This document shows positions 28,529-44,095 of a DNA stretch of 64,000 bases, piece after piece. This stretch comes from Halomonas sp. GT (lineage in GTDB: Bacteria; Pseudomonadota; Gammaproteobacteria; Pseudomonadales; Halomonadaceae). A program made the position numbers and the translations under genes. Positions within the stretch are counted from its first letter, which is position 1. Each line of letters starts with the position of its first letter. The notes under the pieces are model-generated. The model saw only the letters and a list, made by a program, of their open reading frames with translations. It searched no databases and was not told where the DNA came from. The stretch lies in the NCBI RefSeq assembly GCF_002082565.1, contig NZ_CP020562.1, positions 930,001 to 994,000 on the forward strand, in the 5' to 3' direction.

Positions 28529-28564
28529 TTGACATGCAACTGTTTGGTTGCATAATGTCATTAT
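28529..28564 (+). promoter_or_regulatory. Promoter and operator of the arsR-type gene
   Basis: TTGACA (28529-28534) and CATAAT (28551-28556) are spaced 16 bases. The spacer carries ATGCAAC-N6-GTTGCAT (28534-28553), a perfect 7-bp inverted repeat, and ATAATG-T-CATTAT (28552-28564) overlaps the -10. The start codon at 28563 lies where transcription should begin, so the mRNA may be leaderless. Confidence 0.6.
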
Positions 28565-28892
28565 GACAACTAATCTCAATCTTGTTTTCAAGGCGCTTGC
28601 TGATCCCTCGCGGCGCCAGCTTCTGGATAGCCTGTTTGAAAATAATGGGCAGGCCCTCAATGAGCTATGCGAACGACTCTCCATGAGTCGTCAGGGAGTT
28701 ACTAGACACTTGGCGCTGCTGGAAGAAGCGGGGCTGGTGGTTACGGCGTGGCGGGGGAGAGAAAAGTTGCACTACCTCAATGCCGAGCCAATTCAGCAGA
28801 TCCACCAACGCTGGGTCAGTAAGTTCACTCACCAGCGGATTGCGGCGGTGGACAGTCTCAAACAGAAGCTTGAGGACCATCACAATGAGTAA
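28563..28892 (+). CDS. ArsR-family transcriptional repressor
   Basis: 109 residues, winged helix-turn-helix: FKALADPSRRQLLDSL, ELCERLSMSRQGVTRHLALLEEAGLV and the wing WRGREKLHYLN. There are no Cys metal ligands in the recognition helix, so it belongs to the non-metal group that usually accompanies SRPBCC (AHSA1) genes. Two such genes follow in the same operon, the first overlapping by eight bases. ATG 28563 lies only a few bases after a -10 box. An inverted repeat in the promoter spacer suggests autoregulation. Confidence 0.9.
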   Translation: MTTNLNLVFKALADPSRRQLLDSLFENNGQALNELCERLSMSRQGVTRHLALLEEAGLVVTAWRGREKLHYLNAEPIQQIHQRWVSKFTHQRIAAVDSLKQKLEDHHNE

Positions 28893-29376
28893 GCCCGATT
28901 TTGCCTACGTTGTTTACATTAACACGACGCCCGAGCAACTGTGGAAAGCGTTGACGGAAGGGGAGTTTACCCGCCAATACTGGGGTGGGCGGCAGATTAC
29001 GTCGGCGTGGACGGCGGGAGCCACGGTTAAACACGTCAAGGCCGATGGGTCATTGGATTGGCACGGAGAGGTGCTGGAGTCAGACCCGCCGTACCGTTTG
29101 TCCTATACTTTCATTCCTGAAAACGATGACGAGATGCCAGGATACGAGGGCGAAAAAGTTGATCTGACGAGACCTGAAGAACCGTCTCGGGTCACGTTTG
29201 AGATTGCCGAGTATATGGGCCAAGTACGCCTAACGCTGATTCACGATCAATTCGAGGAGAACAGCAAAGTACTACAAGGCATCAGCGTCGGCTGGCCAGT
29301 CATTCTTTCCAGCCTCAAAAGCTGGCTGGAAGGCAGTAGCCCTCTGCTAAGGAGTGATACTGATGGCGCGCATTGA
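28885..29376 (+). CDS. SRPBCC (AHSA1-like) domain protein 1
   Basis: 163 residues from ATG 28885, overlapping the arsR-type gene by eight bases. START-like hydrophobic-cavity fold: FAYVVYINTTPEQLWKALTEGEFTRQYWGG at the N-terminus, YRLSYTF and VTFEIAEYMGQVRLTLIHDQF, ending with the long C-terminal helix around GWPVILSSLKSWLEG. Such proteins bind small lipophilic ligands; the true ligand is unknown. Paired with a regulator and a second SRPBCC gene. Confidence 0.88.
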   Translation: MSKPDFAYVVYINTTPEQLWKALTEGEFTRQYWGGRQITSAWTAGATVKHVKADGSLDWHGEVLESDPPYRLSYTFIPENDDEMPGYEGEKVDLTRPEEPSRVTFEIAEYMGQVRLTLIHDQFEENSKVLQGISVGWPVILSSLKSWLEGSSPLLRSDTDGAH

Positions 29377-29791
29377 ACATATTCAATACGTAAATGCCCC
29401 TCTTTCATGTGTTTACGAAGTGTTGACCACGGCTCGTGGCCTGGCCGAGGTGTGGACCCAGGATTTAACATTCACTGCCCAACTTGATGCGGTCAATGAA
29501 TTCCGATTTGGGGATGAGCACCCGACAAAGATGACGATCGTGGAGCTGGTGCCCAATAATAAGATGACTTGGCAATGTATCGATTCAGACCCGGAGTGGA
29601 TTGGGACCAGCGTCAGTTTCGAGCTAGAACAACGAGGAGACAAAACGGCCGTCACTCTCAAGCATACCGATTGGCGTGAAGTGACCGAGTTCTACCGTTT
29701 CTGCAACTATAACTGGGCGATATTCCTGCTGAGCCTTAAGCAATACTGTGAAGAAGGAGCCGGTATTCATTACCAGGCTCGGACGTTTTAA
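29363..29791 (+). CDS. SRPBCC (AHSA1-like) domain protein 2
   Basis: 142 residues from ATG 29363 (AAGGAG nine bases upstream), overlapping the preceding SRPBCC gene by 14 bases. Same fold: IEHIQYVNAPLSCVYEVLTTARGLAEVWTQDL, then WIGTSVSFELEQRGDKTAVTLKHTDW and a C-terminal helix (NWAIFLLSLKQYCEEG). It diverges clearly from the first copy. The three-gene arsR-SRPBCC-SRPBCC operon ends here. Confidence 0.86.
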   Translation: MARIEHIQYVNAPLSCVYEVLTTARGLAEVWTQDLTFTAQLDAVNEFRFGDEHPTKMTIVELVPNNKMTWQCIDSDPEWIGTSVSFELEQRGDKTAVTLKHTDWREVTEFYRFCNYNWAIFLLSLKQYCEEGAGIHYQARTF

Positions 29792-29817: not shown

Positions 29818-30564
29818 CTAGCTGATCCATCGTTTGTGTTGCCTATGCAGCCACCACACATCGAAGCCAAATGAGTAGATGAGTGTGACTAATGCACTCA
29901 GTGCAAGCAGGCTGGCAGCGAGAGGAGAAGTGAGTGGCGTTAACGCCAGCAGCAATGCAACGACCTGCCACACGCACACTGCTTTACGGCGGAAGCTGTC
30001 AAAAAGCGGTGCTTTTAACCACGGAAAAGGCCAGCTGGCGGCGATGAACACATAACGCATGCCGCCAATGAGTAGTACCCAAGCGCCTAAATGTTCGCTC
30101 TGCAATAAGCCTATACAAAGTATCAGGATTAATACCGCATCCAGTTCCATATCAAAGCGCGCCCCGAACGGGGTATGAGTCTTTGTGCGTCTGGCAATCC
30201 AGCCATCCACACCGTCCAGTAACAGCGCGATAACAGCGACCGCTAGCCACAGCCAAATCGCGTTGGTAAAAGCATTCGCTGCCAGCGCTCCTGCCACGAT
30301 GGCGACGAGTACGCCACGCCCAAGCGTTACCCGGTTTGCCCAACCGAGCGGGCCATGGGGCCAAAAACTTACCACCAGCGCGCCGATCACGACGTAGAAG
30401 CCAGCTGCCAACCACCAATTTGCAGCGCTGGCGACTAATCCCGGCAGCATCGCGCCCAAGCCTACGAGCAATAAGCTAGCCAGCGCTATCTCGGCCAAGG
30501 TGTAAACCCGCTTGGGTAAAGAGACGCTGGAGGTGTTGGAGAAAGAGGACATGCTTACTCGCAA
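29818..30564 (-). CDS. CDP-alcohol phosphatidyltransferase family protein
   Basis: 248 residues, about seven membrane helices. The complete catalytic signature DGx2ARx8Gx3Dx3D is present (DGWIARR...GARFDMELD). The family transfers a phosphatidyl (or CDP-linked) group to a small alcohol such as glycerol phosphate, inositol or serine; which acceptor is used here cannot be read. The C-terminal half has an extra FPWLKAPLFDSFRRKAVC stretch. It is divergent from the dehydrogenase at 30765 across 200 bases and probably belongs with the following cluster (genomic context, inference). Confidence 0.88.
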   Translation of the reverse strand: MRVSMSSFSNTSSVSLPKRVYTLAEIALASLLLVGLGAMLPGLVASAANWWLAAGFYVVIGALVVSFWPHGPLGWANRVTLGRGVLVAIVAGALAANAFTNAIWLWLAVAVIALLLDGVDGWIARRTKTHTPFGARFDMELDAVLILILCIGLLQSEHLGAWVLLIGGMRYVFIAASWPFPWLKAPLFDSFRRKAVCVWQVVALLLALTPLTSPLAASLLALSALVTLIYSFGFDVWWLHRQHKRWIS

Positions 30565-30764
30565 AGCGGCTTACTGGCCCGCGGTTGAATTAAAGTGTGC
30601 AAATTATTTCCTATGTACCATTCTTGTATAAGAAGGTATGGTTGTCCATGATGTGGATACATTTGTTTTAAATCATCTTCACGCTTACATGGGTTAAGCA
30701 ACCGCTTCGCTTTCTAGGCTACGCTGTATGGATGGATGAAGCGCTTAAACCATAAGGAAATGTC

Positions 30765-31754
30765 ATGTTGCCGCCTGATACCGCTACGGCTTTTTGGGTG
30801 ACTCACCCTACGCATGGTGAGCTTAAGCAAGAGCCACTAGCGTCACCCGACGATAATGAGGTACGGGTTCGTGCCCTTTATAGCGGCGTGAGCCGAGGCA
30901 CTGAATCGCTCGTGTTCAACGCGCGAGTGCCGAAAAGTGAATATTCGCGTATGCGTGCACCCTTTCAAGCGGGTGAATTTCCTACTCCTGTGAAATATGG
31001 CTACTGCAACATCGGCTATGTAGAGCAGGGGCCAGATCATTTATTTGATAAAACCGTCTTTTGCCTTTTTCCGCACCAGGACTACTACGTCGTGCCTGTC
31101 GACGCTGTTTTGCCGCTTCCCGACGACGTACCCGCTTACCGTGCCGTGCTAACCGCCAATATGGAAACTGCCATTAACGGTGTGTGGGATGCTAATCCGA
31201 TGCTAGGCGAGCGCGTGTGTGTGGTGGGTGCTGGCGTCGTCGGTGCGCTGGTGGCGTATCTGTGTGCACAAATTCCGGGTGTAGAAGTACATCTGATCGA
31301 CATTAACCCTGAGCGAGAAACGCTGGCAGCGCATTTGGGTATTCCCTTCTGTACACCAGAACAGGCACCCACCGACCAAGATTGCGTGATTCATGCTAGT
31401 GGCCAGCCGGATGGCCTTAGGCTGGCTATGGGCTTGTTGGGCAATGAAGGCCGCGTGATTGAAATGAGCTGGTTTGGCGAAGGCGACGTGTCGCTGCCGC
31501 TCGGTGGCGCTTTTCACTCCCAGCGTTTAACGCTTAGCGCCAGCCAGGTCGGGCAACTGCCTGCCAAGTTGCAGCCGCGCTGGAATTATCGCCGCCGTTT
31601 AGCGCTCGCTTTACGCTTACTCACTGACCAGCGGTTAGATGCATTGATCAGCGGTGAGAGCGATTTTGCCGATTTTCCAACGTTGGCGCCTGCTCTGTTT
31701 GGGCCAAGTAGCACAGCGCTGTGCCATCGAATTCGTTATCCATTGCCCGCTTAA
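30765..31754 (+). CDS. Zinc-less medium-chain dehydrogenase (MDR family)
   Basis: 329 residues. GroES-like N-terminal half and Rossmann domain with CVVGAGVVGALVAYLCAQ. The usual catalytic Cys (GxCGTD) is replaced in YSGVSRGTESLVF, a sequence typical of the BchC-like/TDH-like subgroup, and the GHE motif is absent, so it probably works without catalytic zinc. ATG 30765 has AAGGAAA upstream. First plus-strand gene of the 29.8-38.0 kb cluster; the PTPS-like gene follows after 77 bases. Substrate unknown. Confidence 0.85.
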   Translation: MLPPDTATAFWVTHPTHGELKQEPLASPDDNEVRVRALYSGVSRGTESLVFNARVPKSEYSRMRAPFQAGEFPTPVKYGYCNIGYVEQGPDHLFDKTVFCLFPHQDYYVVPVDAVLPLPDDVPAYRAVLTANMETAINGVWDANPMLGERVCVVGAGVVGALVAYLCAQIPGVEVHLIDINPERETLAAHLGIPFCTPEQAPTDQDCVIHASGQPDGLRLAMGLLGNEGRVIEMSWFGEGDVSLPLGGAFHSQRLTLSASQVGQLPAKLQPRWNYRRRLALALRLLTDQRLDALISGESDFADFPTLAPALFGPSSTALCHRIRYPLPA

Positions 31755-31831
31755 TTAATGCAACTGAATTAAGTGCGAATTAGTTAGAACGACCTGGCTA
31801 AAAAGGTCTAGTTAATACGACAGGAGTGTCT

Positions 31832-32230
31832 ATGTACCGTTTATGCGTTCGTGACCATTTTATGATTGCCCACAGTTTTAATGGGGAAATATTCGGCCCT
31901 GCCCAACGCACCCACGGCGCCACCTATGTAGTAGACGTAGTATTTCAGCGCCCTGAACTTGACCAGGATGGTCTAGTGATTGATATCGGTTTGGCTAGTG
32001 AGACGGTTAAAGAAGTGCTGGCGGATTACAACTATCGCAACCTTGATGAGGTGAGCGAATTTAGCGGTAAAAACACCACCACGGAATTTATGGCCAAGGT
32101 GATTTTTGACCAGCTGGCGGCTGCCATCAAAGCAGGAAAAATGGGTACCACCGCTCAGGGGCTGACGCACATGGAGATCAAGCTGCATGAATCTCATGTG
32201 GCGTGGGCAAGCTATGAAGGGGCGCTATGA
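31832..32230 (+). CDS. 6-pyruvoyl-tetrahydropterin synthase (QueD) paralog with lost catalytic residues
   Basis: 132 residues from ATG 31832 (AGGAG five bases upstream). T-fold protein: RDHFMIAHSF carries the first zinc His (His14), but the HGH pair of PTPS/QueD is HGA here (His28, Ala30), the catalytic Cys before it is missing (GPAQRTHGA), and the LDH catalytic pair reads ADY. The C-terminal substrate-binding Glu is kept (LHESHVAWASY). It cannot be an ordinary QueD or PTPS. Its stop overlaps the next gene (ATGA). Confidence 0.85.
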   Translation: MYRLCVRDHFMIAHSFNGEIFGPAQRTHGATYVVDVVFQRPELDQDGLVIDIGLASETVKEVLADYNYRNLDEVSEFSGKNTTTEFMAKVIFDQLAAAIKAGKMGTTAQGLTHMEIKLHESHVAWASYEGAL

Positions 32231-34209
32231 GTCAGCCATTCACCTTGATAGTGGCTGGCGATCCAGACCAGCGTACCGGTGGGTATATTTATGATGCCCA
32301 TATTGTCGCTGCACTGCGCGAGCGTGGGCTGGTTATCAATGTGGTGGGGGTGTCTGGGCGTTTTCCTGATGCCGATGATGAGGCCGCCCAGTCGCTCGCC
32401 GATTCGCTTTCCGCGTTGCAGAATCATGCGCGGGTCATTATCGACGGCCTGGCCATGGGGGCGCTGCCAAAGGTAGTGGCTGTACACGCTGAGCGCCTGG
32501 ATATCACAGCGCTGCTGCATCATCCGTTGGGCGATGAGCAGGGCTTGAATGAGATGGAACAGCAGCGTTTTCACCGTAGTGAATTACGTGGGCTGGCGCA
32601 CGTGAATAGAGTGATTGTGACCAGCCGTTTTACTGAGCGTCGCGTAAGGGCATTGGCGGAACATTACGCGCTGCCATTTAGTGCCTCTATCACTGTGGTG
32701 GAGCCTGGGGTTGAACGTGCTCCAATCAGCCCCGCGGCAAAACCTAGCGAACCTATCCGCCTGCTATGCGTGGCAACGCTTACCCCGCGTAAAGGGCAGG
32801 ATATTTTAGTTCAAGCCTTGGCGGATGTTGAGCGTGGACACTGGCGATGCGACTGCTTTGGCGGTGCGCGTGATGCTGTGTTCACGGATCGCGTTCAAAC
32901 GCTGATCGACAACCATCAGCTTGGCGATGGGGTAACGCTTCACGGCGAATGTGATGCCGCAACCCTGGAAGCCGCTTATCAGAACGCTCATGCACTGGTG
33001 TTGCCTTCTTGGTATGAAGGTTACGGCATGGTGGTGACTGAAGCGCTAGCCCATGGCTTGCCCGTTATCACCACCACCGGCGGTGCGCTGCGGGATACCT
33101 TGCCCAAAGGGGCTGGCATAAGCGTAGCGCCGGGGGATGCTCAGGCGCTGTCGAGTGCGCTGGCGGCTTTCTGCCATGATGAGACACTACGCACTGAACT
33201 ACGTGCAGGTGCCGCCGCTGCACGTGCCCGCTTGGGTGACTGGCAGGCTGCAGGAAAGGCGTTTGCCGAGGCGCTGCAGCACTCTTCGACATTGTCGGCG
33301 GGAAGCCAATTTGCAGCGGATTGGTTATCGCTGCGTGAAACCGTCGACGCCCGTTCGCGCAGCCAAGCGTTGGTGGATGCGTTAGCGAGATGGTTATCAG
33401 AAAATCAGCGGAGAACCGAGCTATCTAAGACAGAAGAGCCCGCGCCGCGAGTAGAGGCTTCCTCGCCAGTGATACTGGCGGATTTAGGCTGTGGACGAGG
33501 AAGTAATAGCCAGTTTCTTGCGCCTCGCTTGCAAGATGCCCAGCGCTGGATGCTGATTGACCATGATTCTGCCTTACTTAATGAAGCCTACTCGCGAACC
33601 GGGAAATTGAACACGGGTAAGGGTGAACCGCTCCAGGTGGAAACCCACTGTGTTTCTCTTAAACAGCTTGACCACCCAGCACTTACGCACTGCGACGTAG
33701 TGACGGCATCTGCGCTGATCGATTTAGTATCTCAAGAGTGGATTGATGCCTTGGCTGCACAGTGTGCTAAACATCGGCAAGCGCTTCTTATCACTCTAAG
33801 CATTACTGGCGAATGGTACTTTACCAATGCCCAGCAGCAACCTCTGAACGACCTTGACGATCGCTGGATCAGTGAGCTGTTCAACGCGCACCAGCGTTGG
33901 GATAAGGGCTTAGGCGAAGCATTAGGCGGCGATGCTCACAGCGCGTTAGTTAAAGCGATGGCTGACCACGGTTATCGTGTTATTGAGGCTGAAACACCAT
34001 GGCGCTTAGCGGCGGGCAAGCCAGCGCAGTACCCCTTAATGTGCTCGTTAGTTGAAGGGTGGGCGAGCGCTGCTACCGAACAGGCTCCAGAGGCGGCGTC
34101 ACGTATTGCTCAGTGGCGTGATGAGCGCCTAGGTAAAGTAGCCAAAGGCGAGATTGGTATTTGGGTGGGCCACCGCGACTTGCTGGCGCTGCCAGCGGAC
34201 GAGGGCTAA
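32227..34209 (+). CDS. Glycosyltransferase family 4 and SAM-methyltransferase fusion protein
   Basis: 660 residues. Residues about 1-345 form a GT-B glycosyltransferase: sugar-nucleotide site ATLTPRKGQDILVQAL and the E-x7-E motif in SWYEGYGMVVTEALAHGLPVITT. After a linker (about 350-410) comes a class I methyltransferase with motif I VILADLGCGRGSN and an acidic MLIDHD strand end. Both domains look intact. It starts inside the PTPS-like stop and is followed after four bases by a membrane protein gene, so it is part of the cluster operon. It probably glycosylates and methylates the product of the cluster; the acceptor is unknown. Confidence 0.88.
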   Translation: MSQPFTLIVAGDPDQRTGGYIYDAHIVAALRERGLVINVVGVSGRFPDADDEAAQSLADSLSALQNHARVIIDGLAMGALPKVVAVHAERLDITALLHHPLGDEQGLNEMEQQRFHRSELRGLAHVNRVIVTSRFTERRVRALAEHYALPFSASITVVEPGVERAPISPAAKPSEPIRLLCVATLTPRKGQDILVQALADVERGHWRCDCFGGARDAVFTDRVQTLIDNHQLGDGVTLHGECDAATLEAAYQNAHALVLPSWYEGYGMVVTEALAHGLPVITTTGGALRDTLPKGAGISVAPGDAQALSSALAAFCHDETLRTELRAGAAAARARLGDWQAAGKAFAEALQHSSTLSAGSQFAADWLSLRETVDARSRSQALVDALARWLSENQRRTELSKTEEPAPRVEASSPVILADLGCGRGSNSQFLAPRLQDAQRWMLIDHDSALLNEAYSRTGKLNTGKGEPLQVETHCVSLKQLDHPALTHCDVVTASALIDLVSQEWIDALAAQCAKHRQALLITLSITGEWYFTNAQQQPLNDLDDRWISELFNAHQRWDKGLGEALGGDAHSALVKAMADHGYRVIEAETPWRLAAGKPAQYPLMCSLVEGWASAATEQAPEAASRIAQWRDERLGKVAKGEIGIWVGHRDLLALPADEG

Positions 34210-34213
34210 CCCC

Positions 34214-36109
34214 ATGAGACGCTGGCGCTGGCTGAGAACCCCGTGGGTGCAAAAAGGGTTAGTGAGCTTAGGGCTGCTGGCCGCTGTTGCCCTGTGGGTA
34301 GAGCCAGACGCGGTGATGGCTGAAGTGCAGCGCTTTGCGCCGGGTTGGATGGCTCTGGCGCTGTTGATCAGTGTGCTGCAAGTGATGCTGAGCGCGTGGC
34401 GCTGGCAGTTGACGGCAGGCTTAATCGACGTGCCGTTGCGCTACCGTTATGCACTGCGGGAATACTACTTAGCGTTATTGGTTAACCAACTCCTACCAGG
34501 CGGCGTGTTGGGTGATGCAGGTCGTGCCCATCGCCATGCCCGTCAGTCTTCTTCAAAGGGTAGTGCTTGGCGTGCGGTGGTGATTGAGCGTGCTTCTGGG
34601 CAATTGGCGATTGCACTTTACACACTAATCGCCTTGTTCACGTCACCACTCTGGCTAACAGCACTGGGTTTCAGTGGCTTGATGGTAGTGGCGGGCGTAG
34701 CGGTTATCGTGATAGTGGCAGGTGTGACGCTGATGGTCTGGTTGCGGCGCTCGGCGGTAACGCTACCCGCTTGGTGTGCTGCATTAGGGCAGGATATGCG
34801 CCGCGGGCTATTGCAGCGTGACGTATGGCCACGGCAACTGATCTCTTCTCTTTCTATCGTGCTTAGCTATGGCCTGGTAATGGTCTGTGCGGCTCGGGCA
34901 ATCGGCATTGAACTGGCGACATTAGATATTTTGGCGTTGGCTCCAGTGTTACTGCTTGCCATGCTGGTACCCCTTTCGATTGCCGGGTGGGGGTTACGGG
35001 AAGGCGCCGCCGCAGGCATTTGGATGTTTGTTGGCTTGCCTTCGGCGCAAGGTGTGGCGATATCACTGGCTTATGGTGTGTTAGTGCTGATGGGTAGTCT
35101 GCCAGGCATTTGGGCAGCGCTGGCTTCACGAACACGCGCTACGCCGTCCAGTTCTCCGCCATGCAGTTCTCCGTCAGGCAGTGCGCCCGCTCAGCACTAC
35201 GTCGAAGAGCGTGTCGTCCCCGCACCGGAAAGAGCGCATCGTCGGGCGCAGGGCGCTCTCAAGGGTATCGATGGGCGTCATCTGCAGCCCAGGTCGGCCG
35301 GAACCGATAAGCAGCGGCGCGACCAGCAAATGCAGGCGGTCAACCGCGTTCGCTTCAATGAACTGCGAAACAGTAACGCCGCCGCCTTCTACCAATATCC
35401 GCTTAAGGCCACGATCTGCCAGCCAGGTAATAACGTCGGCGGGGCGGAACTGACCATTGGTGTCCAGCGGCAGCACGCAGTGTTCGGCGGTCGTTGGCGC
35501 CACCGTTGCCTCTGGCCCGGTGAGATGCAGCGTGGGTGCGGTAGACGTGGTGAACAGCGCCAAATCAGCCGGCACGCGGCCACGTGGGTCAATCACCACT
35601 CGGGTAGGGTGCTTGCCCGTTACGTGGCGTACTGTGAGCTGGGGATTATCAGCGCTCGCCGTACCCGCGCCAATCACTACGGCATCTGCCAGCGCCCGCA
35701 GACGGTGCAGATGCACCAAACTTTCAACGCCATTGATGTAGTGGGAGTGACCGCTTTCCGTAGCGATGCGCCCATCCAGGCTCTGCCCCAGTTGCGCAAC
35801 CACCCAGCTCGAATGACGCACCAGTGGCAGCAAACACGTCAACAGCTCCTGCGCGGCGCTTGTAACAGTGATAGAAGAGTGCCAGCCGCCATGGGTATCA
35901 AGCGTCATTGTGGCGTCACTTCTGATGCCCTGTTGAACGTCCAGCAACCATGCCCACGCTTGGTCGATATCGATCATCTTTTCATTGGTACTAGGCATGG
36001 TATCTCCCTTCAGAAAACAGCAACTCATCATGCGGGGCCATGTTGCCCGACGCAAGCAAACGTTGTCCGCCCCAACAGGCAACTTGGAGGCCTACATGTA
36101 TCACATTGA
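34214..36109 (+). CDS. UPF0104/LPG-synthase-type membrane protein with a stop-less C-terminal extension
   Basis: From ATG 34214 the first about 310 residues form the UPF0104 (YbhN/AglD-like) membrane domain with some eight helices, with NQLLPGGVLGDAGRAHR and PLSIAGWGLREGAAAGIW as its conserved blocks. The family usually ends here, at about 35140. This frame has no stop until 36109, so the formal protein has 631 residues and its last 310 are the reverse complement of the RibD-like gene. That part is probably meaningless. All three plus frames lack a near stop, so a lost stop codon or a frameshift at the 15-bp repeat (35149-35178) is likely. Confidence 0.7.
   Translation: MRRWRWLRTPWVQKGLVSLGLLAAVALWVEPDAVMAEVQRFAPGWMALALLISVLQVMLSAWRWQLTAGLIDVPLRYRYALREYYLALLVNQLLPGGVLGDAGRAHRHARQSSSKGSAWRAVVIERASGQLAIALYTLIALFTSPLWLTALGFSGLMVVAGVAVIVIVAGVTLMVWLRRSAVTLPAWCAALGQDMRRGLLQRDVWPRQLISSLSIVLSYGLVMVCAARAIGIELATLDILALAPVLLLAMLVPLSIAGWGLREGAAAGIWMFVGLPSAQGVAISLAYGVLVLMGSLPGIWAALASRTRATPSSSPPCSSPSGSAPAQHYVEERVVPAPERAHRRAQGALKGIDGRHLQPRSAGTDKQRRDQQMQAVNRVRFNELRNSNAAAFYQYPLKATICQPGNNVGGAELTIGVQRQHAVFGGRWRHRCLWPGEMQRGCGRRGEQRQISRHAATWVNHHSGRVLARYVAYCELGIISARRTRANHYGICQRPQTVQMHQTFNAIDVVGVTAFRSDAPIQALPQLRNHPARMTHQWQQTRQQLLRGACNSDRRVPAAMGIKRHCGVTSDALLNVQQPCPRLVDIDHLFIGTRHGISLQKTATHHAGPCCPTQANVVRPNRQLGGLHVSH
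35149..35178. repeat. 15-bp tandem duplication at the flippase/RibD convergence
   Basis: CAGTTCTCCGCCATG (35149-35163) is followed by CAGTTCTCCGTCAGG (35164-35178), two near-identical units, with a third start CAGT. The unit covers the stop codon of the minus-strand RibD-like gene at 35174-35176. Confidence 0.7.
35174..35998 (-). CDS. RibD C-terminal reductase-domain protein without deaminase
   Basis: 274 residues from ATG 35998 (GGGAG six bases upstream); upstream in-frame codons are rejected. The pyrimidine reductase (DHFR-like) fold of RibD begins at about residue 65 (WVVAQLGQSLDGRIATESGHSHYINGVES) and includes DAVVIGAGTASADNPQLTVR, DPRGRVP and RILVEGGGVTVSQFIE. The cytidine-deaminase half of ordinary RibD, with its HAE and PCxxxGRTPPC zinc motifs, is missing. 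It would reduce a ribosylaminopyrimidine phosphate to the ribityl form. Divergent from the RibA gene. Confidence 0.87.
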   Translation of the reverse strand: MPSTNEKMIDIDQAWAWLLDVQQGIRSDATMTLDTHGGWHSSITVTSAAQELLTCLLPLVRHSSWVVAQLGQSLDGRIATESGHSHYINGVESLVHLHRLRALADAVVIGAGTASADNPQLTVRHVTGKHPTRVVIDPRGRVPADLALFTTSTAPTLHLTGPEATVAPTTAEHCVLPLDTNGQFRPADVITWLADRGLKRILVEGGGVTVSQFIEANAVDRLHLLVAPLLIGSGRPGLQMTPIDTLESALRPTMRSFRCGDDTLFDVVLSGRTA

Positions 36110-37199
36110 ACGCGCTATTTTCGATATTCGCCGTGGATTGCCCGTGGTGATTAATACCGGAGAGCAACGCCTGTTGGTACAGGCACTTGAAGGCAGTGTG
36201 TCGGTCGATTCACTGGCGAAGCTCTCCGGCTCTCGGCCAGCGCTGGTATTGACGCGTCATCGTTTGGAGGCAATGGGCATGTCGCTCAAGGCGGATGCGG
36301 CTTGCTTACCGCTCACCGAACAAATCAGTGAGCGTGACTTGCACCACCTTGCTGTATCCAATGAAGCGTCGAAGGCCCATTCACTGTTAAGCGGCCTGAA
36401 GCCTGCTGGCGTGGGAGAGAGAGGCGCTGTGGCACTGATGCGTCGCGCGCTGTTGATACCGGCGGCGCTGTGCGCTGAGGTCAGTGCGGCATCCGTCGAG
36501 CCTATTGCTCAGCAGCTAGCAAAAGGCGAGCTGTTAGAAGTTAATGCCCAGGATGCAGAGAAGTGTTTAGCCGGTGCGCCGGGGATGCTAAAGCGTGTCA
36601 GTGAAGCGCGTATTCCTCTTGAAGATGCGCCTGAGAGTCGCTTCGTGCTGTTTCGCGAACCTGATGGCCTGCGAGAGCATGTGGCCGTGGTGATTGGCGA
36701 TCTGGATACCATTCCTGGGGCGGTTCCTTTGCGCATGCACTCGGCTTGCCTCACCGGTGACCTATTCGGCAGCCTGCGCTGTGACTGTGGCGAACAGTTG
36801 CGTAATGCAGTGGCCGATATTCAAGCGATGGGTGGCGGCGTGCTGCTTTATTTGGCACAAGAAGGGCGGGGGATTGGTCTCGCCAATAAACTGCGCGCTT
36901 ACACTTTGCAAGATGGCGGTTTAGACACCGTCGATGCCGACCAAGTGTTAGGGTTTGGCGACGACGAGCGCCAATACGCTGTTGCGGTGGATATGCTCAA
37001 TGCGCTAGAGATCGATAAAGTTCAGCTGTTGACCAACAACCCATTAAAAATGGCAGCACTGCGTGAAGGGGGGATTGAGGTCGTCTCACGTCAGGCGCTT
37101 TACGGCAGTGTAACGGATCATAATCACCGCTACCTAAGCGCCAAAGCTAACCGAGCAGGGCATTTCTTAGACGAAGTGCTTGAAGGTCGTGGGCGTTAA
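36096..37199 (+). CDS. ribA: GTP cyclohydrolase II with degenerate RibB domain
   Basis: 367 residues from ATG 36096 (GGAGG five bases upstream). The C-terminal half is a complete GCH II: zinc ligands Cys218, Cys229 and Cys231 in HSACLTGDLFGSLRCDCGEQL, LAQEGRGIGLANKLRAY and TNNPLKMAALREGGIEVVSR. It converts GTP to 2,5-diamino-6-ribosylamino-pyrimidinone phosphate, formate and PPi. Residues 1-180 resemble DHBP synthase (ERAIFDIRRGLPVVI, LVLTRHRLEAMGM) but lack its DDExRENEGD motif, so this domain is inactive. A copy inside a special cluster suggests a paralog of the housekeeping enzyme. Its end overlaps the creatininase gene by four bases. Confidence 0.9.
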   Translation: MYHIERAIFDIRRGLPVVINTGEQRLLVQALEGSVSVDSLAKLSGSRPALVLTRHRLEAMGMSLKADAACLPLTEQISERDLHHLAVSNEASKAHSLLSGLKPAGVGERGAVALMRRALLIPAALCAEVSAASVEPIAQQLAKGELLEVNAQDAEKCLAGAPGMLKRVSEARIPLEDAPESRFVLFREPDGLREHVAVVIGDLDTIPGAVPLRMHSACLTGDLFGSLRCDCGEQLRNAVADIQAMGGGVLLYLAQEGRGIGLANKLRAYTLQDGGLDTVDADQVLGFGDDERQYAVAVDMLNALEIDKVQLLTNNPLKMAALREGGIEVVSRQALYGSVTDHNHRYLSAKANRAGHFLDEVLEGRGR

Positions 37200-37984
37200 T
37201 CTGAGGTTTTACGCGTGATAAGCGGTGGCAGGTGGGCGGTTTCGGCCACCACCTGCGCTAATTGAGTGGCGTAGTGCCTTACTAACCGTTCACCTAATGC
37301 TTCATGAGCATCCGTTGCATCACCGGCAACGCCGAACGTACTCAGGTCCTCGGCAAGCCAGGCAAACGCGGCGCTACCTTCTGGGCTGACCAGTGCGCCA
37401 CCTTTAGGTATTGCCGGTGGTGTGGGCTGGTAGCTGTCGAGCTGCACAAATTCAGGTGCTAAATGCAGCATGATGGCGGTTTCCAGCAGCCCGCCATGCA
37501 ACCCGTAGCGCAGCTCATCGGCATTGATAGCACCTTCCAGTGGCGGAAGGCGTGTATAAGTGGCTTTCACTACGCGCATTGCAAATTGCTTGCGTAGTGT
37601 CAGCGCGGCAAGGTCCATCACGGCTTTATTGCCGCCGTGGCTATTAATCAACACCAGCTTTTTTATACCTGCCTGGGCAATGCTTTCGCCGTAAGCCTCT
37701 AATGTCGCGATGGCGAGTGGAGCGGGTAGGCTAAGCGTTCCAGCAAAGCTGGCGTGTTCGTCGCTCGCACCGACGGCAATTGCTGGCAGACACAGCACGT
37801 CGAGTGCTGGGTCAATCATGTCTAACATGGCGGCTTGTAACCCTTCACCAATGATCAGGTCGGTACCTAATGGAAGATGCGTACCGTGCTGCTCAATGGC
37901 TCCCAGGGTGATCACTGCAACTGGATCACTTGCGGCAATCTTGGCGAGTTGGGGGGCGGTGAGGGTTTGCCAGTGATAAATCAT
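37196..37984 (-). CDS. Creatininase-family amidohydrolase
   Basis: 262 residues. Metal-binding residues of the family are kept: GAIEQHGTHLPLGTD (Glu, His, Asp), INSHGGN and HGGLLETA. Family members include creatininase, MftE and ArfB, the last one a deformylase of the formamidopyrimidine made by archaeal GTP cyclohydrolase III. Next to RibA and a RibD reductase a role on a GTP-derived pyrimidine is the natural guess (inference). It lies 37 bases downstream of the FkbM gene in the same direction and could be read from the opgG promoter. Confidence 0.88.
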   Translation of the reverse strand: MIYHWQTLTAPQLAKIAASDPVAVITLGAIEQHGTHLPLGTDLIIGEGLQAAMLDMIDPALDVLCLPAIAVGASDEHASFAGTLSLPAPLAIATLEAYGESIAQAGIKKLVLINSHGGNKAVMDLAALTLRKQFAMRVVKATYTRLPPLEGAINADELRYGLHGGLLETAIMLHLAPEFVQLDSYQPTPPAIPKGGALVSPEGSAAFAWLAEDLSTFGVAGDATDAHEALGERLVRHYATQLAQVVAETAHLPPLITRKTSD

Positions 37985-38021
37985 GTAAGTTCTCTTGTTT
38001 TGAAGCCCGTGTTTTAAAGAC

Positions 38022-38804
38022 TTATGCGGATGCGTTTAACAGCGGATGGTCGGTGCGGCAGGCGTAGAGATCCCCAGAGGCTAAGCCGTCGACGCCATCA
38101 TTGAGCCACTGGGTAATGGTTTCAGGGGATTGCCAGGTTGACCAGCGGAAGTGGCGCTGCTCACCGGCAATTGCATTGAAACGGTAGTCGCCAAGACGTG
38201 ACAGCTGTTTAACGCAGGCATGGCTGACCTCTAACACGCCCGCAACAAACTCTACCGAAAGCGCTGCTACCGGGAGGTTAAGCCCCATCAGTACCTCTGC
38301 TTCAAACCCTTCAACATCAATTTTTATAAAGCTTGGTTCGCCGTAAGTGGCGATAAGCTGATCCAGTGTAGTGACTTCCACTCTTAGCTGCTGTTCCCAC
38401 TGCACGCGCTGAAAGCCAGGGTTTCGTTCGCCCACCTGATGTCGCCATTCGGTCGCTAGGGTAGAGAGGGTCGGGTTGCTAACGCTAATAGCAATATCCG
38501 CATGGCCGGGCTGCGGCCCAGCGGCCAGTGGTAAGAGTGTAATGTTCGGTCGATTGAGTATCCGTTTAAACCATTTGGCCAGTGCTGGCTGTGGTTCTAA
38601 TGCCACTACCTTAGCACCTAGCGCGTGGAAGGCGGCACTGCGGTCACCTAAGTGAGCGCCAATATCAAAAGCGATATCGCCCGGCTGAATAAACGGACGA
38701 TATAACTGCTTTAGTCCCCTTTGCCTTCCTGGCCGCCAGTAAATAAACAGTGAACGCGCCATACCGCTGGCACTGCGGAGCCGATCAAAAAAAGCAGAAG
38801 GCAT
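38022..38804 (-). CDS. FkbM-family SAM methyltransferase
   Basis: 260 residues. Motif I FDIGAHLGDRSAAF, acidic strand end VVALEPQP, and the FkbM hallmark FIKIDVEGFEAEVLMGL. These enzymes O-methylate sugars and other hydroxyl groups. The ATG overlaps the opgH stop (TAATG), with AAGGAG upstream, so it is translated with opgH. That suggests methylation of periplasmic glucans or of a sugar precursor, which is not a described part of the classical OPG pathway (inference). Confidence 0.88.
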   Translation of the reverse strand: MPSAFFDRLRSASGMARSLFIYWRPGRQRGLKQLYRPFIQPGDIAFDIGAHLGDRSAAFHALGAKVVALEPQPALAKWFKRILNRPNITLLPLAAGPQPGHADIAISVSNPTLSTLATEWRHQVGERNPGFQRVQWEQQLRVEVTTLDQLIATYGEPSFIKIDVEGFEAEVLMGLNLPVAALSVEFVAGVLEVSHACVKQLSRLGDYRFNAIAGEQRHFRWSTWQSPETITQWLNDGVDGLASGDLYACRTDHPLLNASA

Positions 38805-40783
38805 TAGTAAGGCTCCTTAACGGATGGTGCATGTTCAGTTGCTGTTTGAGCGTGATAGCGAAACGATTGGCAGGGCATATCGCCTGGCTGTTCTTGGGGA
38901 AGCGCTAGAGAAAGTGTTAGCGACGGGTGAGATAAGGTGGCACTGGATTGATGACTGCGGCTTTCTAACGCGGCAAAGTCCTCCAAAAGAGGTGGTTGTT
39001 GTGCTGAACTCGGCGTTTGCAGTAAGCCGAACTTGCGGCTAATGACGCTTCCCCAGGTGGCACTGCTGGAATATTTCACCAACGGCGCGGCTCCAATCAG
39101 CCCCAGCCATGCGGGAGTTAGCCAACCAAACGCAGAGGGTGAAAAAAGCATCATTGTACCTGCCCAAGCGATACCACACAGCGTCATCCACCCAGTGTGG
39201 TGCCATGTCTCTCGCCAGCTTAGCGAACGCTCTCCCCGGTGTTGGGTTTGCCAGTCAATGGCCCGGCCAATCAATACGTTGATGATAAATAAGCTATGCC
39301 ACGCCATCATTAGTGGTGCAATCAAAGCAGCAAACAGAATTTCTAATAACGTGCTGGTGACAAGCTTGAGTCGCCCGCCATACGCATGGGGACATTGCCA
39401 GAACGTCAATAATAGACCCAGCAGCTTGGGCGCAATCAACATACACAGCGTTACGCTTAACAGCCCCAAAGAGAGGGCTTCAGGCAACGGTGGGTTTGAC
39501 GTAGTCTCAATGGCTTGATACCCCACCATGAGGCTGGTGCAGAGTAGAAGCCCAAGCCAAACAAGCGAAGAAAGGTAGGCAAACGCGCCGAATAAAAAGT
39601 GGAGTCGACTAATCGGGTGAAACCCTGCACCGGTGAGTAAGCGTAAGTGCTGCAGATTGCCCTGAAGCCAGCGCCGGTCACGCTTGGCAAAGTCGAGCAT
39701 GTTGCTCGGCATGGCTTCAAAGCTGTTGTGTGACGCGCTAGCGTAAGGGTTATGACGCGATACGGCGGTGGTCGCAGAAGTGTCCAGTAACACCTGCCAG
39801 CCGCCCCGTTTCAGGAGAGCCGCTTCGACGAAATCGTGGCTTAATAGTTCCCCTCCCAGCGGTGGCTTACCTGAAAGGATAGGTAACCCTGCATGGGCCA
39901 TAAAGGCGCGTGTGCGAATAATTGCATTGTGGCCCCAGTAATTCGCCGCATCGCCCTGCCAGAAGCTTTGGCCCGCTGCCAACATCGGGCTGTAAAGTGC
40001 TGAGGCTAGCTGGGTAAAACGGCCAAATAGGGTACGTTGGCCAACGGGAATAGGTACCGTTTGAATAAGGCCTACGCTGGGTTGGCGCTGCATCCGATGC
40101 ACTAAATGCAGTAGCGTAGCGCCACTCATTAGGCTGTCGGCATCTAGCACCACCAAGTAGTCATAGCGGCGGCCCCAGCGGCGACAAAACTCTGCAATAT
40201 TGCCTGCTTTTCGGCCGTCATTATTAGGGCGTCGCCGATAATGAACGGCTATCTGTCCGGCAAGGCGCTGTTGCAAGGCAGCCACATGGGCCGCTTCGAT
40301 GTCTGCCATGGCCGACTCTTGGGTATCGCTCAACACGAACACTTCAAAGTATTTGTTGATAGCACTGGGTGTTCCTGCACCATACGCTTCTGCTTGCTGG
40401 AGAAGTGAACGACACGTTGCTTCTAGCCCCGCAATGGTAGGGATAGGAGGTTCTGCATAAATAGGCATTACGAGTGCGGTGCGGCTGACTAGCAGGCTGG
40501 CATTGGGGTTCACAATGGCTTGGCGACGTAAGCTGAGTGGATCGCGACGTAGCGCACAAAGCACAAAGCCACACAGTGCTCCCCAGAAAGCCAGCGCTAT
40601 CCAAGTAAACGTTAATGCAAATAGGATCAACATGGTGAGCTGCCAACCAATGGCAAGGTTGGCAACGACTTTCGCCATTGCGATACAGCCACCGATGCTT
40701 GTGGCTAACACCGTGAAAGCAAGGAAGGCTCGGCGACCGTTAAGCCAGGGCATCGAAGGCCGCAACGCGTGGAGATCAGGCAT
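38804..40783 (-). CDS. opgH: Glucans biosynthesis glucosyltransferase (OpgH/MdoH)
   Basis: Inner-membrane GT2 enzyme that makes the beta-1,2-linked glucan backbone from UDP-glucose. Motifs: YLVVLDADSLMSG (DxD), GHNAIIRTRAF, LLSHDFVEAALL (ED-like) and RDRRWLQGN (QxxRW type). Membrane helices lie on both sides. 659 residues from ATG 40783, which overlaps the opgG stop by eight bases; an upstream ATG at 40831 is possible but lies within opgG. Shorter than E. coli OpgH (847), mainly at the N- and C-termini. Confidence 0.92.
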   Translation of the reverse strand: MPDLHALRPSMPWLNGRRAFLAFTVLATSIGGCIAMAKVVANLAIGWQLTMLILFALTFTWIALAFWGALCGFVLCALRRDPLSLRRQAIVNPNASLLVSRTALVMPIYAEPPIPTIAGLEATCRSLLQQAEAYGAGTPSAINKYFEVFVLSDTQESAMADIEAAHVAALQQRLAGQIAVHYRRRPNNDGRKAGNIAEFCRRWGRRYDYLVVLDADSLMSGATLLHLVHRMQRQPSVGLIQTVPIPVGQRTLFGRFTQLASALYSPMLAAGQSFWQGDAANYWGHNAIIRTRAFMAHAGLPILSGKPPLGGELLSHDFVEAALLKRGGWQVLLDTSATTAVSRHNPYASASHNSFEAMPSNMLDFAKRDRRWLQGNLQHLRLLTGAGFHPISRLHFLFGAFAYLSSLVWLGLLLCTSLMVGYQAIETTSNPPLPEALSLGLLSVTLCMLIAPKLLGLLLTFWQCPHAYGGRLKLVTSTLLEILFAALIAPLMMAWHSLFIINVLIGRAIDWQTQHRGERSLSWRETWHHTGWMTLCGIAWAGTMMLFSPSAFGWLTPAWLGLIGAAPLVKYSSSATWGSVISRKFGLLQTPSSAQQPPLLEDFAALESRSHQSSATLSHPSLTLSLALPQEQPGDMPCQSFRYHAQTATEHAPSVKEPY

Positions 40784-42305
40784 CGGGGTACCACACGTAA
40801 TTCCAGGTTTCAGTAATGGGCACTCCTTCAACCATCAGCCGTAGCCGGATATCTCTGGGCTCGCTACCGGGGGGTAATCGGAAAGTAGCCCGTTGTCCGT
40901 TATTGGGTAGTGTTTTGACTTGAGGTAGTAATGCCTCGCTATTTTGCACGCTAATGTCCAGCTCGATTGGCTCGTTTGATGTCAGGTCATCCAGTTTGCC
41001 GCCCTGGAAATCGACGATGAATTGCCGCTGATCAGCAGAGGGGGAGTCGGCCTCGCCTGGAACCGCTGCGCTTCCATGGCGTGTGCGCACAACCTTGCCC
41101 AGTGAATTAGCCTCGGGCTGTTCATTGAGCGTAAACGTTCGATAGTGAAGGTGGCGTGATTCGCCAGCAGTGAGCGCCTCCTCGGCCACCCAATAAGCCA
41201 CTATATTGTCGTGAGTTTCATCTGGCGTGGGGATCTCGACTAGCTCCACATGCCCTGGCCCCCAGTCAGTAAGTGGCTCTACCCACTGGCTGGGGCGGCG
41301 GTGGTAGTGTGCTTCAAGGTCCAGGTAGCGAACAAAATCTCGCTCCCGTTGCATTAAACCAAACCCAGAAGGAGCATTGTCCACAAACGCTGATACGCGA
41401 ACTGATGAGGGATTTTGCAACGGCCGCCAAATCCACTCGTCGGCCCCCGTGTGTATTAGCAAACCATCAGAATCATGCACTTGAGGACGAAAGTCGTCAG
41501 GTCGTTCGGTGCTGGCTTCCCCAAAGGTGAACATGCTGGTGAGCGGTGCAACCCCTAGCTTTTCTATATCAGAACGTGCAAACAGCGTTGCTTCTACATC
41601 TGCCTCGGTGCTCTCGCCCGGCGTTAACGTAATGCGGTAAGCGCCGCTTAGCGACGGACTATCCAGGAGTGCGAGAAGTGTAATGCTGTCAGAGTTTTCA
41701 TCAGGCTTATAAAGCCAGAATTCGCGAAATTCAGGGAACTCTTCACCACTGGCTAATGCGGTATCAATAGCAAGCGCGCGGGTAGAAAGGCCGTAGGCTT
41801 GGTCGCGTCCTACTAGACGGAAGTAGCTTGCGCCAAGAAAAACAGCAAATTCATCGGCATAATCATCATTATTGATAGGATAGTGAAGCCTAAAGCCTGC
41901 ATGACCGCTTCCTGTTAAATCATGCTCTAACAGGCGGTTGGCATCACCATCGTACTGAAAGTTATCTGCCGAGAAAGAGAGTGGTTCAACGTCACCGCTG
42001 TCGATCACATTAATAGTGACGGGTGTTTGAAATATAAATCCGCTATGAAATAGCTGCATACTGAAAGGGCTTTCATCGCGCCAGTAGGCTCGCTCGGGAT
42101 TGAAACGGATTTGTCGATATAGGTCGTAATCTAACGACTTCAAAGCGCTGGGAAGCGTCTCATTTGGGGGGTGATAAGGCGCATCGGCCAAGGTCTGGGC
42201 ACGCTCAATAACGTGGTCAAAAACATCATCATCGTTAGCAACCGCAGAAAAGGCGATCAGGCAGTTGAATGACAACATCCATTTTGCTGCAGTACGAACA
42301 CTCAT
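40776..42305 (-). CDS. opgG: Periplasmic glucan biosynthesis protein OpgG
   Basis: 509 residues with a signal peptide (cleavage probably after FSAVA). MdoG domain: FDHVIERAQTLADAPYHPP, YDLYRQIRFNPERAYWRD, FQLFHSGFIFQ-like segment, and the C-terminal immunoglobulin-like part ending WNYVWYPDA. It organises branching and release of the glucan made by OpgH. First gene of the minus-strand unit opgG-opgH-fkbM, and perhaps the creatininase gene. A palindrome lies in the divergent promoter region at 42378. Confidence 0.93.
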   Translation of the reverse strand: MSVRTAAKWMLSFNCLIAFSAVANDDDVFDHVIERAQTLADAPYHPPNETLPSALKSLDYDLYRQIRFNPERAYWRDESPFSMQLFHSGFIFQTPVTINVIDSGDVEPLSFSADNFQYDGDANRLLEHDLTGSGHAGFRLHYPINNDDYADEFAVFLGASYFRLVGRDQAYGLSTRALAIDTALASGEEFPEFREFWLYKPDENSDSITLLALLDSPSLSGAYRITLTPGESTEADVEATLFARSDIEKLGVAPLTSMFTFGEASTERPDDFRPQVHDSDGLLIHTGADEWIWRPLQNPSSVRVSAFVDNAPSGFGLMQRERDFVRYLDLEAHYHRRPSQWVEPLTDWGPGHVELVEIPTPDETHDNIVAYWVAEEALTAGESRHLHYRTFTLNEQPEANSLGKVVRTRHGSAAVPGEADSPSADQRQFIVDFQGGKLDDLTSNEPIELDISVQNSEALLPQVKTLPNNGQRATFRLPPGSEPRDIRLRLMVEGVPITETWNYVWYPDA

Positions 42306-42377
42306 GGGCGAGTTCCTTTCGATTGCATGCCAACGTGGTAACCATAAAATCAGTATATGAAATATTTCAACAAAAGT

Positions 42378-42401
42378 TATACCATTGAGTCTATTGGTAT
42401 A
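42378..42401. promoter_or_regulatory. Operator-like palindrome between opgG and the sulfatase-fold gene
   Basis: TATACCA (42378-42384) and TGGTATA (42395-42401) are exact complements ten bases apart, in the A+T-rich 176-base divergent region. It could be bound by a regulator of both units. Confidence 0.4.
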
Positions 42402-42464
42402 TGATTTTTATGGTCGTGTGCAAGCTTTAAACTCCATTAAGCGTGTAATGTTTAGGTGATTGCT

Positions 42465-42482
42465 ATGCTGTTGAAGCGCTGA
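42465..42482 (+). CDS. Possible five-codon leader ORF (MLLKR)
   Basis: ATG 42465 with AGGTGA about seven bases upstream, five codons, and a TGA whose last base is the first base of the next ATG (42482). The downstream start has no ribosome site of its own, so reinitiation after this mini-ORF would explain its translation. Confidence 0.35.
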   Translation: MLLKR

Positions 42483-44095
42483 TGCTCCGTCTTCTACTCA
42501 CATGTATAACGCTCAACTTTCTACTGGTATTGCCGCTTTGGTGGCGTTTCGGTGAGATTGGCTCTCCTCTAATTGCTTGGGAAGCATGGCTTATAGCCCC
42601 CATAATGCTGCTTATTCGTCCTGGTAGCTTACGTGGCTGGTTGGCTATTTTGTTGGTATGTTGGCTTGCTTTGGTATCGGCAGCCAACCTAGGTGATGCC
42701 GCGACACACACCGCGTTTGGGCGATCACTTAACCTCTATCTAGACGTGCCCTTGGTGCGCTCCATCTACCATTTGCTAGTAGGTAATGTAGGTCAACTGG
42801 CAGCAACTTTCCTGATGTTGTTGGGCACTGTGGCCCTGCTAGGTAGCTTATGGGTGATGCTGCGTTTGCTGCTGCCTGCTCAACCTTTATCGGTGTGGAG
42901 TGCTCCAGGTGCTTTAGCCATCTTCGTCATGATCACGACAGCAGGTTTTGCGATTTCCGAGGCTAACGGCAAGCGATTAGTCGCTAAAACAACGCTGCCT
43001 GCTGTTAACACCACGCGTTTCCAGTGGGAGCAGGTGGTGGCGACCCATCGGGCGAGAGTAGCGTTTACCGAACAGTTGCAGAATACACCGTTGGAGCCCA
43101 GACCATTGCCTGGTTTGTTAGGGCGCAACGTCTTATTAACTTTTATTGAATCTTATGGTGTGTCGGCCATTAATGATTCTCGCTACAGCAGTGTCGTACT
43201 TCCTACGCTAGATGACATACAGCGACGTTTGGGACAGCGCGATCTACACGCTGTTTCGGGGTTGCTAGAAGCGCCTATTCGAGGGGGGCAGTCTTGGCTT
43301 GCCCATGCCACGGCACTAAGCGGGCGCTGGATTGATAACCAGCTATGGTATCGGCTGATGCTGGAGAGCGATCATTCAACGCTTATTAGTGATTTTAGTA
43401 GCACTGGGCAGCGGACGCTCAGTGTCATGCCTGCCATTACATTGGCTTGGCCAGAAGGGTTGGCCTACGGATTTGATGAGATTGCAGCAGCGAAAGATTT
43501 ACCCTATGTAGGCCCACCGCTGAACTGGGTCACGATGCCCGATCAGTTCACTCTGGATTACACCCAGCGACATTTATTAGGTGAGGCGCCGGTATTCGCG
43601 CAACTCGCACTTATCTCTAGCCACGCGCCATGGACACCCATTCTGCCCGTTTTCGAAGACTGGTCGATGATAGGCGATGGGCGTGTTTTCGCCCCCTGGG
43701 AGGAGGCCGGCGATCCGCCAGAAGTGCTTTGGCAGGATATTGAGCGTATCCGCGACCATTACGCGTGGTCAATAGACTACGCTGTGAAGGTCACAGGACG
43801 CTGGGCTGAGCGAGTAGTTGATGACAAGACTCTATTGATTGTACTTGGAGACCATCAGGCGGCACCGCTGATTACTGGCGACAACGCCAGTGCAGCAGTG
43901 CCAGTCCATGTGATTAGCGGTGACCCCCGACTCTTAGAACCTTTTAAGGCACGTGGTTTTATTGATGGCATGCTGCCGTCACTGGAAAGCCCAGAGGAGG
44001 CCGCGAAAATGAGCCAGCTGCGTCATTGGTTACAGCAAGACTTTGGCACGCCAGCATTAACCTCTTCTTTGTCAACGACAGGGGAGACACCATGA
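42482..44095 (+). CDS. LTA-synthase/OpgB-like membrane sulfatase-fold transferase
   Basis: 537 residues: four to five N-terminal membrane helices (about 1-165), then an extracytoplasmic alkaline-phosphatase-superfamily domain. Recognisable: NVLLTFIESYGVS (metal-binding Glu), IRGGQSWLAHATALSG (probable Ser or Thr nucleophile) and LLIVLGDHQ (Asp/His metal site). Relatives transfer phosphoglycerol or phosphoethanolamine. Next to opgGH it may decorate periplasmic glucans, as OpgB does in E. coli, although it is not a close OpgB. It overlaps the next gene by four bases (ATGA). Its start lacks a clear ribosome site. Confidence 0.82.
   Translation: MLRLLLTCITLNFLLVLPLWWRFGEIGSPLIAWEAWLIAPIMLLIRPGSLRGWLAILLVCWLALVSAANLGDAATHTAFGRSLNLYLDVPLVRSIYHLLVGNVGQLAATFLMLLGTVALLGSLWVMLRLLLPAQPLSVWSAPGALAIFVMITTAGFAISEANGKRLVAKTTLPAVNTTRFQWEQVVATHRARVAFTEQLQNTPLEPRPLPGLLGRNVLLTFIESYGVSAINDSRYSSVVLPTLDDIQRRLGQRDLHAVSGLLEAPIRGGQSWLAHATALSGRWIDNQLWYRLMLESDHSTLISDFSSTGQRTLSVMPAITLAWPEGLAYGFDEIAAAKDLPYVGPPLNWVTMPDQFTLDYTQRHLLGEAPVFAQLALISSHAPWTPILPVFEDWSMIGDGRVFAPWEEAGDPPEVLWQDIERIRDHYAWSIDYAVKVTGRWAERVVDDKTLLIVLGDHQAAPLITGDNASAAVPVHVISGDPRLLEPFKARGFIDGMLPSLESPEEAAKMSQLRHWLQQDFGTPALTSSLSTTGETP

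Follow-up and report, generated by a model that had tools for sequence, protein, structure and literature searches.

Among proteins of solved structure, the closest to the PTPS-IV family is SCO6650 of Streptomyces coelicolor (PDB 3d7j), which matches the PTPS-IV profile over its full length (E = 1.1e-58). SCO6650 reportedly lacks both zinc and PTPS activity and has a site of the pterin-binding type; SCO6655, encoded nearby, is presumably a GTP cyclohydrolase II yielding the deformylated pyrimidine, and we know of no product of the SCO6650/SCO6655 system. The FGPAQ signature is assigned to PTPS-IV in the AGeNNT paper, whose section on the family counts 561 sequences and names GTP cyclohydrolase II (PF00925) and RibD_C (PF01872) as neighbors (2017, PMC5445326), and a passage of a review assigns PTPS-IV to F420 synthesis, citing unpublished work (PMC5041015). 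Two further papers describe BrbF, annotated as a member of the creatininase family, as acting on a GTP-derived pyrimidine (PMC9478397), and, in E. coli, the transfer of phospholipid head groups to the periplasmic glucans (PMC3818809). Here, we describe a PTPS-IV gene cluster in a 64,000-nucleotide stretch of the Halomonas sp. GT genome (contig NZ_CP020562.1, positions 930,001 to 994,000; hereafter the window). Our best explanation, a tentative one as a whole, is that positions 29818-44095 of the window encode a single co-inherited pathway running from GTP to the cell envelope; functions throughout are derived from sequence and predicted structure. That the cluster encodes a dedicated pathway from GTP we regard as highly probable.

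An earlier note on this DNA had proposed an eight-gene pathway at 29818-37984 from GTP to a glycosylated pyrimidine or pterin. As judged by Pfam, each of the eight genes is there and carries what the note named; the right boundary of the system does not stand. The creatininase gene closes a run on the minus strand, mdoG-mdoH-fkbM-creatininase, whose intergenic gaps measure -8, -1 and +37 bases, so that the former edge cuts through an apparent operon. Beyond that run lies a membrane-protein gene in divergent orientation, at 42482. On the basis of this run and the divergent gene, we take 29818-44095 as one system, which thus gains genes for FkbM, MdoH, MdoG and an LtaS/EptA-like enzyme and, in other genomes, YceI:

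29818..30564, minus strand: CDP-alcohol phosphatidyltransferase (Pfam PF01066, CDP-OH_P_transf, 58.6 bits)
30765..31754, plus strand: dehydrogenase of the polyol/alcohol dehydrogenase fold (ADH_zinc_N below cut-off, 21.2 vs 31.8)
31832..32230, plus strand: PTPS-IV (FGPAQ) protein, PTPS catalytic residues absent (Pfam PTPS, 91.9 bits)
32227..34209, plus strand: GT4 glycosyltransferase-methyltransferase fusion (Glycos_transf_1, 101.5 bits; Methyltransf_25, 29.8 bits)
34214..35200, plus strand: UPF0104/LPG_synthase_TM flippase-like membrane protein (PF03706, 134.4 bits; end approximate, from the lengths of relatives' reading frames)
35174..35998, minus strand: RibD_C reductase, deaminase domain absent (PF01872, 135.8 bits)
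36096..37199, plus strand: GTP cyclohydrolase II (RibA) with an N-terminal region lacking a Pfam match (PF00925, 185.2 bits)
37196..37984, minus strand: creatininase-family hydrolase (PF02633, 203.4 bits)
38022..38804, minus strand: FkbM-type methyltransferase (PF05050, 64 bits)
38804..40783, minus strand: MdoH-type membrane glucosyltransferase of a cluster-linked clade
40776..42305, minus strand: MdoG, periplasmic glucan synthesis (PF04349, 616 bits)
42482..44095, plus strand: membrane protein with an LtaS/EptA-like alkaline-phosphatase-superfamily domain (E223, S271, H381, D457 and H458 kept)

One line of evidence for the proposal is the recurrence of this gene set far outside Halomonas, with a conserved order in several phyla, which bears out the co-conservation that the earlier note had expected in relatives. 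In a class sample and a phylum sample, both draws from larger groups, the PTPS-like query matched 142 of 369 class genomes at E <= 1e-3; the orthologue stands out in 17 of the 369 at E <= 2.8e-30, the next best match standing at 7.2e-12. Among 398 phylum-sample genomes, 28 matched at E <= 1e-15, and 27 of these did so at 2e-47 or better. A scan of named genomes gave at least 581 confirmed stretches, the best 80 of which were used; they derive from Halomonas and relatives, Marinobacter, Variovorax, other Burkholderiales, alphaproteobacteria, Acidobacteria, Gemmatimonadota and Actinoplanes (L127, an actinobacterial example), and many are metagenome-assembled genomes, whose contigs are possibly misbinned. 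A protein search recovered at least 8000 PTPS-IV relatives at E <= 1e-20 (120 among the matches listed). A search for viral copies gave 33 pattern matches, none of which was confirmed. Because the PTPS-like orthologue is so sharply set off, and because the same neighbors accompany it in other phyla, the cluster is more than a chance assembly.

Gene content was counted within about 10 kb of the PTPS-like gene in 109 loci (111 mapped, less L098 and L110, which are near-identical to L135 and L037). These fall into 57 non-Halomonadaceae loci, 37 loci labelled Halomonadaceae-like by hand on the basis of titles and kinship (including L058, from a metagenome-assembled genome named Rhodovulum), and 15 phylum-sample loci; the last come from 15 of the 28 matching genomes, all of other classes, with G519 and 12 Halomonadaceae-order genomes (f1, f183) left out. 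The counts, given in that order, are lower bounds since some contigs stop within the cluster (the glycosyltransferase is missing from L045 and L117 for that reason): dehydrogenase 55, 37 and 15; glycosyltransferase 55, 37 and 14; methyltransferase 54, 36 and 13; RibD_C 49, 33 and 12; phosphatidyltransferase 41, 37 and 1; YceI 27, 7 and 0; UPF0104 25, 34 and 1; creatininase 19, 29 and 1; RibA 18, 29 and 7; LtaS-like 18, 6 and 2; FkbM 12, 19 and 5; MdoH 7, 13 and 8; MdoG 6, 17 and 0. One locus (L143) holds nine cluster genes together. Chance neighbors were considered and rejected: the recurrent non-core families in 97 loci are led by YceI (20) and LtaS-like proteins (16), the next family reaching 10. 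Protein distances of all 11 partners correlate with those of PTPS-IV (rho 0.28-0.70), and none of 300 shuffles scored as high, the shuffles being of a kind that leaves shared ancestry in and the comparison being made with no unlinked control gene.

The PTPS-like protein of the window carries the FGPAQ signature, and the earlier note's description of it as a non-canonical PTPS paralog can now be sharpened to membership of PTPS-IV. Across 112 aligned rows (the window and 111 loci, both duplicates included), G22 and A24 are invariant, P23 is kept in 111 and Q25 in 106; H14, H28 and E120 are likewise invariant. The position of the PTPS catalytic Cys is Ala in all 112 rows; at that of the third zinc-ligand His, 111 rows have Ala and one has Thr. 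Aligned with a structurally solved PTPS, the protein shows Ala opposite both the catalytic Cys and the third zinc-ligand His, and Asn-Tyr opposite the Asp-His pair. The protein falls outside canonical PTPS/QueD, lacking the CxxxHGH motif and scoring 48.4 bits against the QueD model, whose cut-off is 89.25. Relatives are listed under names like 6-carboxytetrahydropterin synthase; since the family has lost the PTPS catalytic residues, such names are doubtful.

The other enzymes of the GTP-derived part retain their expected residues. In RibA (numbered from 35985), C255, C266, C268, Y306, D327 and R329 are each retained by at least 95% of 47 sequences; we take the three Cys to be zinc ligands, D327 and R329 to be the catalytic Asp/Arg pair, and Y306 to be the tyrosine associated with full deformylation. 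With these residues and a PF00925 score above cut-off, the window protein is by sequence a GTP cyclohydrolase II. About 200 N-terminal residues (35985-36600) lack a Pfam match; the NCBIfam model PRK08815 spans residues 38-396 at 336.9 bits, its cut-off being 464, and one thought is that this region is a dead RibB domain. The creatininase-family protein keeps E31, H33, D42, H116 and E168 in at least 95% of 47 sequences, presumably the metal-site residues typical of the fold, and scores 24.3 bits against the ArfB model (cut-off 180). A RibA that halts at the formylated pyrimidine, with the creatininase-family protein as deformylase, was considered and is not relied on because RibA retains Y306, the presumed switch; a fusion in L111 keeps the idea alive. 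In that Gemmatimonadales metagenome-assembled genome, a single open reading frame (ORF; 7706-9517) of 603 residues carries both a RibD_C and a creatininase domain. In the phosphatidyltransferase, D117, D120, G121, A124, R125, G134, D138 and D142 are each retained by at least 95% of 78 sequences; all eight positions of what we take to be the family motif, DxxDGxxAR(x8)GxxxDxxxD, are present in the window protein, which by sequence is a CDP-alcohol phosphatidyltransferase. The dehydrogenase has Ser43 where the usual zinc-ligand Cys would be expected; among solved structures, iditol 2-dehydrogenase and a ketose reductase are nearest to it in sequence, and its predicted fold (pLDDT 92.9) is closest to polyol dehydrogenases, though general alcohol dehydrogenases trail these by only about 2 Z units.

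Three RibA-domain and two RibD_C genes are encoded in the genome, a single contig of 4.16 Mb. A deaminase-bearing RibD lies at 2.73 Mb in one run with RibBA, RibH, nusB, a ThiL-like gene and pgpA, so that riboflavin genes do exist beyond the cluster, a point on which the earlier note had made its proposal depend: two further RibA-domain genes, plus a complete RibD accompanied by RibBA and RibH. By Pfam, deaminase and RibH are absent among the cluster genes of the window; RibE was not among the genes sought. A second PTPS-family gene of the genome lies at 1.75 Mb.

From the observed gene content, co-conservation, retained active-site residues and folds, we infer which reactions take place and in what order, and likewise the lipid and the acceptor, as follows. 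RibA would open GTP to 2,5-diamino-6-ribosylamino-4-pyrimidinone 5'-phosphate, and the RibD-type reductase would convert the ribosyl arm to a ribityl chain, the 2-amino-4-oxo edge being retained because the reductase has no deaminase domain. Oxidation of one hydroxyl of this chain by the polyol-dehydrogenase-like enzyme would be a natural reading, and reduction at C1' followed by oxidation at C2' would give the skeleton to which an Amadori shift leads in GTP cyclohydrolase I, ready for pterin closure. PTPS-IV, a T-fold protein with its conserved glutamate kept, may then bind the 2-amino-4-oxo ring and close or rearrange it, possibly giving a pterin. A sugar would come from the GT4 domain, one methyl group from the methyltransferase domain and another from FkbM. 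A glycosylated 2-amino-4-oxo pyrimidine or pterin is the probable product. The phosphatidyltransferase could turn the polyol into a phospholipid head group, the UPF0104 protein could flip the lipid to the periplasmic side, the YceI lipocalin of other genomes may carry it, and the LtaS/EptA-like enzyme may transfer the phospho-head-group to a glycan acceptor, which in some lineages would be the MdoG/MdoH glucan. Formation of such a lipid or glycan conjugate is plausible, though we rate it as somewhat less likely than not. The most detailed version, which would make the product an envelope conjugate of a class not described before, is improbable as a whole: a redox detour around the Amadori step, closure by PTPS-IV of a polyol-phosphate dihydropterin, flipping of the decorated lipid and LtaS-like transfer to a glycan, with the MdoH paralogue as an alternative route where the phosphatidyltransferase is absent. 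For the earlier note, co-conservation, active-site residues and separate riboflavin genes support its dedicated, non-riboflavin GTP pathway; the glycosylation and methylation that it proposed follow from enzyme classes only, and its guess that the product is attached to a lipid or moved across the membrane is strengthened by genes outside its list (YceI, LtaS/EptA-like, MdoG/MdoH and FkbM).

The envelope partners themselves vary among lineages. The 42482-44095 protein has no match of its own in Pfam or NCBIfam, and a sequence search for solved structures finds no relative of it or of MdoH; in its predicted structure, a membrane domain precedes an alkaline-phosphatase-superfamily domain with nucleophile and metal ligands, the layout of LtaS/OpgB/EptA-type enzymes. 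In some genomes a special MdoH paralogue replaces the phosphatidyltransferase, and cluster MdoH copies form clades of their own in a tree of 36 rows (46 before removal of 10 Halomonas rows). In L111, mdoG, mdoH, the dehydrogenase gene and the PTPS gene are codirectional, mdoH and the dehydrogenase gene overlapping by 4 bases. The MdoG of the window is the sole MdoG match in the Halomonas sp. GT genome; MdoG is missing from 3 of 8 alphaproteobacterial-type genomes with an adjacent MdoH and from 10 of the 17 class genomes carrying PTPS-IV. An MdoG-type glucan is therefore not the general acceptor, and glucan decoration as a general role is untenable in those 10 genomes. YceI lies downstream of the phosphatidyltransferase on the same strand in 21 of 80 rows. 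Three gammaproteobacterial genomes of about 1.0-1.1 Mb (L046, L048, L049) keep the cluster together with the genome's sole YceI, and relatives of their PTPS-like proteins include Tara records.

Of the alternatives, the one that survives best is a soluble pterin or pyrimidine glycoside (a sunscreen, signal or cofactor), with the lipid and glucan genes as neighbors for transport or regulation and no lipid made. It would accord with the constancy of the dehydrogenase, PTPS-IV, glycosyltransferase, methyltransferase and RibD_C while the envelope genes vary, and with the absence of the phosphatidyltransferase from 12 of the 15 phylum-sample genomes. We nonetheless consider it unlikely, as the phosphatidyltransferase is present in 41 of the 57 other loci and in all 37 Halomonadaceae-like loci; where the cluster is split in two, in G380, the second piece keeps it side by side with RibD_C, FkbM, YceI and MdoH; and YceI, a lipid-binding family according to a published account (PMC9113575), recurs beside it. 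The same account, in which YceI structures were found with isoprenoids and ubiquinone-8, favors a second alternative, in which a reduced pterin or aminopyrimidine on a lipid anchor serves as a redox or antioxidant molecule and is borne by YceI as quinones are. YceI occurs in 27 of the 57 other loci, and the cluster copy is the only YceI of four class genomes; it is absent, however, from 2 of the 17 class genomes and from all 15 phylum-sample loci, and the LtaS/EptA-like enzyme, MdoG and MdoH would be left unexplained, so that we rate this reading slightly lower again. Ordinary supply of riboflavin, queuosine or F420 by paralogues among chance neighbors is very improbable, for although RibA, RibD_C and PTPS domains belong to such pathways and the review cited above places PTPS-IV in F420 synthesis as unpublished work (PMC5041015), riboflavin and queuosine supply are rejected on the separate RibA, RibD, RibBA and RibH genes, the lost PTPS residues, the second PTPS-family gene and a gene order conserved across phyla, and CofG, the only F420 gene sought, exceeds its cut-off in 0 of 32 PTPS-IV genomes (G551 has a partial match, 2.7e-48).

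Several further features of the window concern gene structure and its flanks. Genes were called by simple ORF rules, under which starts tend to be overextended; the revised starts of the PTPS-like (31832), RibD_C (35998, minus) and RibA (36096) genes each have a purine-rich stretch upstream. The UPF0104 ORF runs antisense through ribD, since its frame is open as far as 36109; among Halomonas/Vreelandella loci where the ORF is intact it mostly spans 574-726 residues, as against 323-376 in Kushneria, Salinicola and Chromohalobacter. The glycosyltransferase and methyltransferase are separate genes in most loci beyond Vreelandella-type Halomonas and Marinobacter. On the left flank (28548-29791) lie a short regulator ORF, DNA-binding by appearance, and two small ORFs resembling ArsR and SRPBCC. 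Promoter- and terminator-like sites occur in the window at chance frequency, and its sole Rfam match, a TPP riboswitch (19714-19874, minus strand), is distant from the cluster.

The gene set thus spans gammaproteobacteria with genomes of about 1 Mb, Halomonas, Variovorax, Acidobacteria, Gemmatimonadota and Actinoplanes. If the proposal is true, the envelope would contain a lipid or glycan of an unfamiliar kind, one that bears a GTP-derived group; working out the cluster would assign a function to many misnamed genes. Literature searches, which covered open-licence papers, found no function for it. The AGeNNT section on the family concerns the same FGPAQ protein, but calls PF00925 FolE2, proposes no pathway, and omits the dehydrogenase, glycosyltransferase, methyltransferase, phosphatidyltransferase, YceI, MdoH and LtaS-like partners found here (PMC5445326). 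With S. coelicolor, the comparison rests on the SCO6650 protein rather than on the locus. BrbF/ArfB is the nearest known use of the creatininase family on such pyrimidines (PMC9478397); here the family member stands beside an ordinary-type RibA. With the riboflavin pathway the cluster has RibA and the RibD reductase domain in common, but it lacks the deaminase domain and RibH and adds PTPS-IV, the dehydrogenase, the glycosyltransferase and lipid-type enzymes. The E. coli OpgG/OpgH/OpgB/OpgE system likewise combines MdoG and MdoH, which occupy 38804-42305 of the window, with a membrane enzyme of the phospho-head-group transferase fold, yet it has no counterpart of the GTP-derived genes, and the cluster MdoH proteins lie in separate clades. 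By analogy, decoration of periplasmic glucans in E. coli may serve as the nearest model for the lipid and glucan steps of the pathway.

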